A DNA stretch of 64,000 bases. It comes from Thermococcus gammatolerans EJ3. GTDB taxonomy: Archaea; Methanobacteriota_B; Thermococci; Thermococcales; Thermococcaceae. The position numbers and the translations under genes are program-made. Positions 40,367 through 42,410 of this stretch are shown here, one piece after another (within the stretch, counting starts at the first letter, position 1; each line of letters starts with the position of its first letter). The notes under the pieces are model-generated. The model was given only the letters and a program-made list of their open reading frames with translations, had not been told where the DNA came from and ran no database searches. The DNA lies in contig NC_012804.1 in NCBI RefSeq assembly GCF_000022365.1, positions 1,550,001 to 1,614,000 of the forward strand. The letters run 5' to 3'.

Positions 40367-40654
40367 GTGCAGACCGTGACAAGGAGGGCCAGCTCCAAAT
40401 GGGTAACCGGGCTGAGACCCAAACTGGAGGAAGCCTTCTCGCGCGGGGCCTTCGAGGGAACTCTCGTTGGGAAGGCCGAGCTCAGGGGGCTCGACATGCT
40501 GGAGGTCGTTGAGGTAAAGCTCGTCCCCGGAAAGCCCGAAGGGCCGTCCTTCGAGGTCTCGGGTAGAATCGTGACGTTCAAGTTCCCCTTGGAAAAGGGA
40601 CAAAACTTAGAGGACGTCTACTACCCCTTGATGGGCATGCTCAACAGGGTCTAA
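40367..40654 (+). CDS. Small conserved hypothetical protein, GTG start
   Basis: A 95-aa protein, not recognised. It looks like a compact beta-rich fold: LEVVEVKLVPGK and GRIVTFKFPLEK read as paired strands, followed by a helix NLEDVYYPLMGMLN. Its GTG at 40367 is supported by GGAGGTGG. Upstream (40155-40366) is AT-rich with TATA-like boxes facing both this gene and methylmalonyl-CoA mutase. Confidence 0.6.
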   Translation: MQTVTRRASSKWVTGLRPKLEEAFSRGAFEGTLVGKAELRGLDMLEVVEVKLVPGKPEGPSFEVSGRIVTFKFPLEKGQNLEDVYYPLMGMLNRV

Positions 40655-40684: not shown

Positions 40685-41542
40685 ATGCTCGTCAAAGGTA
40701 TCGGCCTCGACAGCTCGGCAAAGCTGGCCTTCCAGAGCCACGCCCACAGCGACCACTTCGTCAGCGGGGAGGTTATCTTCGCGACCAGGGCGACGAAGTT
40801 CCTCAGCCACCTCCGCAAGGGCGGGTTCTACCGTGAGGTAAAGTTCAGGAAGACCTTCTACATCGGCGACGTTAAGGCGAAGCTCTATCCAGCCGGCCAC
40901 ATGCTCGGTTCGGCTGGAATAAAGCTCTGGCTCGAGGCCGGAACGCTCTTCTACACCGGCGACACCAAGTGGTTCAAGCTAAGAACTGCCGAGAAGAGCC
41001 GCTTCCCGAGGGCGGACTTTCTGGTAATCGAGGCTACCTTCGGCGTCCCCGCTTTTGCGTTCCCCTCCCCTAGGGAAGCGGAAAAGAAGTTAATCTCTTT
41101 CGTCGAGGAAGCTCTCGACAGGGGAAAGAAACCGGTTCTCTACGTCAACCAGATGGGGAAGGCCCAGGAGGTTATGAAGATACTCGACGTCCACGGGATA
41201 ACGGTCAGGCCCTCGCGCGAGATGCTGAAGGTTGCGAGGGTGTACTCGAAGTTCGGAGTCCGCTTCGACAACATCGAGAGAGATGGGGAGGTAATCCTTC
41301 GCTCCTATCGCTCTCCTAAGGTTGAGAACTCGTTAAGTCCCTGGGAACTGACGGTTTCTGGATTTGGAAGGCTGAAGCTCAGCAACCACGCCGACTTCTG
41401 GGAGCTGGTAAGGATTGTTGAGAAAGTCAAGCCTGAGAAGGTATTCACAGTCTATGGCTTCGCCCGGGAGTTTGCTGAAATTCTCAGGGGACTCGGGCAC
41501 GAGGCCTTTCCATTACTGCCGAACTCGGAGATTAAGGTTTGA
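40685..41542 (+). CDS. Metallo-beta-lactamase-fold nuclease-like protein
   Basis: A 285-aa MBL-fold hydrolase with the metal-binding motif SHAHSDH (His19, His21, Asp23, His24), a further PAGHMLGS, and FYTGDTKW. The C-terminal region KLSNHADFWELV resembles the end of the beta-CASP/RNA-processing family, so an exonuclease role is likely, though the full beta-CASP insert is short. A TATA-like AAAGCTTTAAGC centred near 40660 suggests a nearly leaderless mRNA. Confidence 0.8.
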   Translation: MLVKGIGLDSSAKLAFQSHAHSDHFVSGEVIFATRATKFLSHLRKGGFYREVKFRKTFYIGDVKAKLYPAGHMLGSAGIKLWLEAGTLFYTGDTKWFKLRTAEKSRFPRADFLVIEATFGVPAFAFPSPREAEKKLISFVEEALDRGKKPVLYVNQMGKAQEVMKILDVHGITVRPSREMLKVARVYSKFGVRFDNIERDGEVILRSYRSPKVENSLSPWELTVSGFGRLKLSNHADFWELVRIVEKVKPEKVFTVYGFAREFAEILRGLGHEAFPLLPNSEIKV

Positions 41543-41596: not shown

Positions 41597-41624
41597 TCCG
41601 AACCGAAACCTTAATATATTCGGA
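41597..41624 (+). promoter_or_regulatory. Promoter with TATA inside an inverted repeat
   Basis: TCCGAA (41597-41602) and TTCGGA (41619-41624) flank a TATA region CTTAATATAT. The arrangement would let a dimeric repressor cover the TATA box. The predicted start is about 41640, at the first hairpin of the candidate RNA. Confidence 0.5.
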
Positions 41625-41640
41625 ATTCATCAAAATATAT

Positions 41641-41770
41641 CGAAGAACCTTCGCTATTGGGGTCTATTTGTTAGAGAGGTTGCGGGCACGTGGCAGGATC
41701 CCCGCGGCCTGAAGGCCTCAGGCGTTTGGGCATCACAGCTGAAAGGGGGTGATACCCAAGCCACCCCTCC
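41641..41770 (+). ncRNA. Candidate multi-branched structured RNA upstream of hsp20
   Basis: In the 382-nt gap before hsp20, a promoter is followed by consecutive hairpins: CGAAG-aac-CTTCG (41641-41653); then GGGGT (41659-41663) pairing with ACCCC (41763-41767) as a closing helix around three more. These are GCGGG/CCCGC (41682-41705), GCCTGA/TCAGGC with a 5-nt loop (41707-41723), and a 13-position stem with one mismatch (41724-41736 with 41749-41761). The helices abut without gaps. No known RNA family is recognised. A 71-codon frame overlaps but resembles no protein I know. Confidence 0.5.
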
Positions 41771-41854
41771 CACTTCTATCATCTGTTTCTTCTGAGCCCT
41801 AAATCCCGGCCTTCTGGAGACCATTTTTAGTCACCTTTTGTATGGTAAATCGAA

Positions 41855-41868
41855 AAGTTTATAAAGGG
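41855..41868 (+). promoter_or_regulatory. TATA promoter of hsp20
   Basis: A purine-rich BRE (CGAAAAG) followed by TTTATAAA at 41858-41865. The start is predicted near 41888, about 37 nt before the ATG. Confidence 0.7.
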
Positions 41869-41872
41869 TTCC

Positions 41873-41903
41873 TTTTTAGTAACTACTGGTAACCAAAATA
41901 AAG
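41873..41903. promoter_or_regulatory. Probable Phr heat-shock operator
   Basis: Spanning the predicted hsp20 start is a sequence with TTTTTAG, two GTAAC half-sites (41879-41883 and 41889-41893) and a closing AAAATAAA. This fits the form and position of Phr sites, which in Pyrococcus cover the transcription start of hsp20 and the AAA ATPase gene. The match was made by eye, without a scored model. Confidence 0.45.
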
Positions 41904-41924
41904 GCCGTCGGGAGGTGATGCCCG

Positions 41925-42410
41925 ATGGTCTGGAGAAGGGACCGCTACTGGGACCCGTTCGATATAATGAGGGAAATCCAGGAGGAGATTGACGCAATAT
42001 TCCGCGACTTCATGAGGGGCCCAAGAATCTGGAGCTACCGCGAGCCCAGGGAGAGCATTGCCATCAGCGAGAGCTGGAGAGAGCCCTTCGCGGACATCTT
42101 CGACCGCGGTGACAAGTTTGTCATCACCGTTGAGCTTCCAGGAGTCAGGAAGGAGGACATCAAGCTCCGCGTTACAGAGGACACCGTTTACATCGAGGCC
42201 CAGATAAGGCGCGAGAAGGAGCTCGAGGAGGAGGGCGCCATAAGAATCGAGCGCTACTACAGCGGTTACAGGAGGGTCATCAGGCTCCCCGAGGAGGTCA
42301 TCCCAGAGAAGGCGAAAGCGAGGTACAACAACGGCGTCCTCGAAATCGAGATCCCAAAGAAGAACCCAAAGAAGCCCGAGGGAGAGGGCTTCGAGGTCAA
42401 GATCGAGTGA
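41925..42410 (+). CDS. hsp20: Small heat shock protein Hsp20
   Basis: A 161-aa alpha-crystallin-type chaperone that holds unfolding proteins. Variable N-terminus (to about 45), alpha-crystallin domain (FVITVELPGVRKEDIKLRV to NNGVLEIEIPKK) and C-terminal tail. ATG 41925 follows GGAGGTGATG. Heat induction is expected through the Phr-like operator. The Hsp20-Cdc48 pairing is conserved in Thermococcales. Confidence 0.94.
   Translation: MVWRRDRYWDPFDIMREIQEEIDAIFRDFMRGPRIWSYREPRESIAISESWREPFADIFDRGDKFVITVELPGVRKEDIKLRVTEDTVYIEAQIRREKELEEEGAIRIERYYSGYRRVIRLPEEVIPEKAKARYNNGVLEIEIPKKNPKKPEGEGFEVKIE

Follow-up and report, generated by a model that had tools for sequence, protein, structure and literature searches.

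The gap between an MBL-fold nuclease-like gene and hsp20 in Thermococcus gammatolerans EJ3 is likely to encode an undescribed RNA, restricted to the genus Thermococcus, that would be either a small RNA with its own promoter or a 5' leader. The window analysed here comprises 64,000 bases, positions 1,550,001-1,614,000 of a 2,045,438-base contig (genome G000). We propose that positions ~41641-41800 of the plus strand would form a Thermococcus non-coding RNA made from its own BRE/TATA promoter after the nuclease-like gene, and we infer that it is transcribed. Two parts would do its work: on the 5' side a core hairpin whose conserved apical loop reads GYGGCA, and on the 3' side a Shine-Dalgarno-like element that lacks a start codon and that flanking sequence could hide; a pyrimidine-rich tail would probably terminate the RNA. 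Beside hsp20, the RNA would end ahead of the hsp20 promoter and act as a free small RNA, and where the gene p95 follows, the same module would open the p95 mRNA as its 5' leader. The complete reading, a non-coding RNA with core hairpin, start-codon-less element and tail, is one we regard as reasonably probable. The case for this putative RNA is carried by sequence conservation. Comparison with relatives shows selection on its predicted promoter, core and element, a fixed position, no conserved reading frame and repeated loss.

All genes at the locus lie on the plus strand. The MBL-fold nuclease-like gene (40685-41542; TIGR04122-like, under the cut-off) is the constant upstream neighbour of the RNA and precedes hsp20 in nearly all Thermococcus loci examined. 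The hsp20 gene (41925-42410, matching PF00011) was found in 87 of the 94 genomes of the family, so that the region upstream of it could be read in relatives. It has a separate promoter region (41858-41930) with a TATA box at 41858-41866, a putative Phr-like operator at 41875-41898, a short 5'UTR and a start codon at 41925. The 95-residue gene p95, at 40367-40654 in the window, gave no Pfam or NCBIfam match and occurs in 27 of 61 Thermococcus genomes; where it could be placed, it is close to the MBL-hsp20 locus, upstream of the MBL gene in some cases and between that gene and hsp20 in others. The hsp20 5'UTR (41903-41930) has a possible 10-bp helix, GGCCGTCGGG with CCCGATGGTC, whose loop would hold the Shine-Dalgarno sequence and whose 3' arm would include the start codon. 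Loci L026 and L029 have GACCGTCGGG (A-U for G-U), L015 has GACCAT/ATGGTC, L028 and L032 have GGCACC/GGTGCC instead, and the helix is missing in many other members. In a hyperthermophile, it might serve as a start-codon hairpin or an RNA thermometer.

Within the Thermococcus gap after the MBL gene, the shared order is promoter, leader, core, middle, Shine-Dalgarno-like element and pyrimidine-rich tail. The covariance-model search of relatives that the initial annotation had proposed was carried out with a model (R1) built from 12 Thermococcus loci, which matched 16 genomes of the genus at E below 1e-10 (1e-11 to 1e-19), all at this locus (group 1). A second set of R1 matches was weak, about ten of them at the corresponding place. 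In nine genomes (group 2), the order is MBL gene, RNA, p95, hsp20. A second model (R2), built from the nine group-2 loci alone, gave weak matches at the hsp20-adjacent locus in G047, G053, G030 and G000 (E 5e-5 to 0.09), and since these are four group-1 loci, the two groups are probably one RNA family. Further copies were minimal (L079), divergent (L017) or decayed (L083, in G003). No match of R1 in the family's other genera, or in the remainder of the phylum sample, was convincing as a copy; a match in G108 (E 1.6e-4), a genome from a different family within the class, reads unlike the RNA family, and a pattern scan of viral contigs gave 42 short matches, none backed by the model (best 18 bits).

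Carriers of the RNA are dispersed across a tree of the MBL protein, on which well-supported branches force at least six changes of state; L023, which has the RNA, groups with L026 and L030, which do not. This pattern fits an old RNA with several losses, and since it has been lost repeatedly the RNA would be dispensable. Two of the loci without it belong to genomes that we take to be T. kodakarensis (G011) and T. onnurineus (G013). Transcriptomes have been published for both T. kodakarensis (PMC4247193) and T. onnurineus (PMC5316973). In four loci (L092, L093, L095 and L096, of genomes G028, G026, G013 and G016), what by eye appears to be a frame for an MscS-type-channel-like protein replaces the RNA between the MBL gene and hsp20. 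In L042 and L073, the space between the MBL gene and p95 holds a different GC-rich leader, with GGGAGGTGATAGCC immediately before the p95 ribosome-binding site, which may be a remote relative of the RNA or an analogue of it.

The predicted RNA promoter (41603-41618) consists of a BRE-like CCGAAAC followed by a TATA box, CTTAATATA, at 41610-41618, which places the predicted start near 41641. The conserved BRE/TATA lies approximately 30 nt ahead of the predicted start, as is expected of a stand-alone archaeal small RNA with its own promoter. In relatives the promoter often reads AACCGAAACCTTAATATATTCG. The TATA box is inside an inverted repeat, CCGAA (41603-41607) with TTCGG (41619-41623), that is broken in L019 and L023. 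The promoter-proximal stretch and 5' leader (41619-41678) show 37% identity, the neutral rate, and in relatives 60 to 70 nt of unconserved leader separate promoter and core. A leading hairpin, CGAAG-AAC-CUUCG at 41641-41653, is specific to this genome.

The initial annotation had described positions 41641-41770 as a multi-branched RNA before hsp20, with its own promoter and a possible response to heat stress. Its description of the promoter, with the TATA box in an inverted repeat, the predicted start near 41641 and the leading hairpin, is borne out by the sequence. The minimum free energy fold of 41641-41770 is also essentially as it described, and every element it named is present, among them the closing helix (GGGGU 41659-41663 with ACCCC 41763-41767) and a hairpin of 13 positions (41724-41736 with 41749-41761) in which 12 of 13 are paired and C41731 is opposite A41754. 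On the plus strand the fold has -54.3 kcal/mol and z = -2.0, a stability that 7 of 200 shuffled sequences equalled and thus only modestly better than chance. The opposite strand gives z = -2.6, and the z-scores of relatives scatter around zero. What did not survive comparison is the architecture. When the fold was projected onto 15 group-1 sequences and paired cells were counted against slid positions, 56.7% of cells were paired versus 35-42% when slid, with almost all of the support coming from the core hairpin (82%). The leading hairpin reached 50%, the closing helix 48% with gaps in more than half of the 15 rows, and both the 13-position hairpin and a small second hairpin 36%. We therefore rejected the multi-branched fold as a conserved architecture, its closing helix and 13-position hairpin being specific to this genome. 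Compensatory changes in homologous regions, whose absence was to count against an RNA, are nearly lacking, the only double changes being isolated ones in the 3' hairpin described below. The position before hsp20 holds in part of the genus, while in nine genomes the RNA precedes p95 and not hsp20. This, the lack of a Phr-type site in the RNA promoter and the unchanged hsp20 promoter of many relatives without the RNA leave a link to heat stress unsupported.

The core hairpin (41679-41711) has a helix of 41679-41686 with 41701-41708 and a loop containing GUGGCA (41690-41695), and the 35-nt consensus is GUUGCGGGCnCGYGGCAGnG..CCCGYGGC. In this helix 90.6% of cells are paired versus 45-62% when slid. 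An alternative helix (41683-41687 and 41689-41693 with 41702-41706 and 41707-41711), in which 83.3% of cells are paired, uses the same 3' strand and excludes the first. Neither core helix shows any double compensatory change. The core helix contains G-U pairs, which on the opposite strand would become C-A, and these, together with the promoter direction, favour the plus strand. An H-type pseudoknot, GCGGGC/GCCCGC with GGC/GCC, noted by eye and attractive in the divergent L017, is not claimed because its 1-nt linker is sterically doubtful and nested helices fit the same bases. The variable middle (41712-41743; 41% identity) is about 30 nt long and unconserved in relatives; in this genome its bases 41724-41736 pair with 41749-41761, so that the Shine-Dalgarno-like element is covered, but relatives do not keep this pairing.

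The Shine-Dalgarno-like element (41745-41761) reads GGGGGTGAT (41745-41753) and then ACCCAAGC. GGNGGUGRU was found in all 25 members examined, with the consensus GGNGGUGRU..CAAG. None of the 25 has ATG, GTG or TTG within 14 nt after the element, nor therefore a start codon at the 4 to 14 nt that would mark a translational riboswitch. A possible 3' hairpin (41744-41768), AGGGG (41744-41748) with CCCCT (41764-41768), would mask the element. In group 2, A-U replaces G-C in L061, the one double change counted; hand reading gives a second replacement in L067, shifted by one column in the alignment. The element does not pair significantly better with its own tail than with those of other members (permutation p about 0.1), and its pairing with the tail or the upstream region was rejected as a defining structure (p 0.10 within groups, 0.36-0.41 overall). 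The tail (41762-41800), a probable 3' end or termination region, is followed by a T5 near 41824-41828. Over 45 nt, its C+T content is 76% in the window and 69-87% in group 1, where random 45-mers of the window have a mean of 50%. Group-2 tails have no T-run. T-runs in the tail are about as frequent as a rough chance estimate, which leaves termination there putative.

Promoter, core and Shine-Dalgarno-like element evolve much slower than silent sites. Across the 16 group-1 genomes, mean pairwise identity is 88% for a 15-nt promoter segment, 69% for the core and 82% for the element, versus 46% at fourfold sites of the MBL gene, 37% for the leader, 41% for the middle and 37% for the tail; because motifs were used to find the TATA box, core and element, their identities are somewhat inflated, though the gap is large. 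Between groups 1a and 1b the corresponding values are 85%, 65% and 78%, with 43% at fourfold sites, 28% for the leader, 39% for the middle and 35% for the tail.

A protein frame over the same bases, which was likewise to count against an RNA, is not kept among the relatives, where stops and indels intervene between groups. This bears on the reading of the region as a small protein gene, served by the Shine-Dalgarno-like element or by an upstream frame, which we consider very unlikely. Such a gene would account for the strong Shine-Dalgarno sequence and for the TTG-initiated frame that stays open through the core in group 1b, but no member has a start codon after the element, stop codons interrupt the core frame in several members of group 1a, this genome among them, and indels shift it. 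The listed 71-residue TTG frame over the region begins upstream of the promoter.

The most conserved part of the region is its promoter, which lies partly within the inverted repeat, and the core is GC-rich and partly palindromic with few compensatory changes. These features would also suit a DNA element, with transcription-factor sites around a promoter and no RNA. We think this improbable, given two conserved blocks that lie approximately 40 and 105 nt past the predicted start, the RNA-like G-U pairs of the core helix and a Shine-Dalgarno-like sequence that is near-perfect for ribosome binding and in the transcribed orientation.

If an RNA is made, it may be a cis-acting 5' leader of the next gene, similar to a riboswitch or attenuator, controlling p95 in group 2 and hsp20 by read-through in group 1; we hold this possible, though on balance unlikely. 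A gene on the same strand always follows the RNA, P. abyssi has stable leader-derived RNAs (PMC3124441), and in the nine group-2 genomes, whose tails are free of T-runs, no promoter stands between the RNA and p95, so that the RNA must be within the p95 leader there. Against this, hsp20 is served by a Phr-type promoter of its own that lies beyond the RNA and is retained where the RNA has been lost, and the Shine-Dalgarno-like element is ~140-220 nt from the hsp20 start. Seven group-1 genomes (G004, G010, G017, G027, G029, G030 and G048) keep the RNA without p95, as do the minimal and divergent copies, and eight others (G006, G009, G011, G012, G015, G038, G043 and G057) have p95 without a recognisable RNA. 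As each occurs alone, the RNA is not merely the p95 leader, a reading that we discarded, and since the hsp20 promoter is kept with or without the RNA, neither neighbour gene defines it. A separate RNA is the likelier form in group 1, given the tail and the independent hsp20 promoter. It is also conceivable, though scarcely probable, that the region is a functionless, decaying relic of a 5' leader, left behind when its p95 gene moved elsewhere. The position of p95, which immediately follows the RNA in group 2 and elsewhere precedes the MBL gene, the decayed copy in G003 and the repeated losses fit such a history; the slow evolution of promoter, core and element in group 1, including in genomes without p95, does not.

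The candidate RNA, as had been supposed, matches no recognised family. Among the 4227 families of Rfam 15, nothing was found over 41600-41800 at E<=5, or in the RNA regions of seven relatives. Elsewhere in the window the search returned a fluoride riboswitch (RF01734, 30105-30180, minus strand, 48.5 bits) and the C/D guide RNA sR34 (RF01273, 53307-53361, minus strand, 76.2 bits), both over the gathering score. The alignments have no conserved ACA at the 3' end and no Rfam H/ACA model matched. A C/D guide RNA fits no better; GUGAUG is present in group 1a, but group 2 and most of group 1b have GUGGUA or GUGGUG, and a conserved CUGA is absent. The nearest known kind are the 5'UTR-derived non-coding RNAs of P. 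abyssi, sRkB, sRk28, sRk33/SscA and sRk61 (PMC3124441), with which the candidate has in common that it is short, intergenic, from the Thermococcales and preceded by a BRE/TATA promoter. Some of those are conserved, one has a proposed pseudoknot and several are thought to derive from mRNA leaders (PMC3124441). The candidate differs in that the SscA family of Rfam has no match here and the neighbours are different, sRkB adjoining PAB0571 and sRk28 adjoining PAB1992 (PMC3124441). HgcC, HgcE, HgcF, HgcG and other Rfam archaeal RNAs are hyperthermophile non-coding RNAs found through GC content and conservation; the candidate matches none of their models, and HgcC was not found in this genome by search. 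The candidate resembles Shine-Dalgarno-masking translational riboswitches and RNA thermometers in having a strong Shine-Dalgarno-like sequence and flanking RNA able to pair with it, and differs in that no member has a start codon after that sequence. The neighbouring hsp20, with its Phr-like operator, resembles the Phr-regulated hsp20 promoter of the Pyrococcus furiosus Phr regulon, from which the RNA promoter differs in having no such site.

How a non-coding RNA of this form would act can be suggested only tentatively. It might expose or hide the ribosome-binding element, either by switching between the two exclusive core helices or by binding a protein, which we consider unlikely though possible. 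A more specific scheme, in which a ribosome-binding module lacking a start codon captures or releases the 3' end of 16S rRNA according to the core-helix switch, so that the small RNA would act on the ribosomes themselves and be reused as an mRNA leader in some species, appears rather improbable. Archaeal small RNAs beyond the modification guides are poorly understood, and the fixed locus, the conserved promoter and the natural presence or absence of the RNA in close relatives of laboratory species make this a clean test case. To our knowledge, no RNA acting on ribosomes through a ribosome-binding element without a start codon has been described in archaea. Should the element prove functional, it would suggest a new mode of action on ribosomes in this domain.
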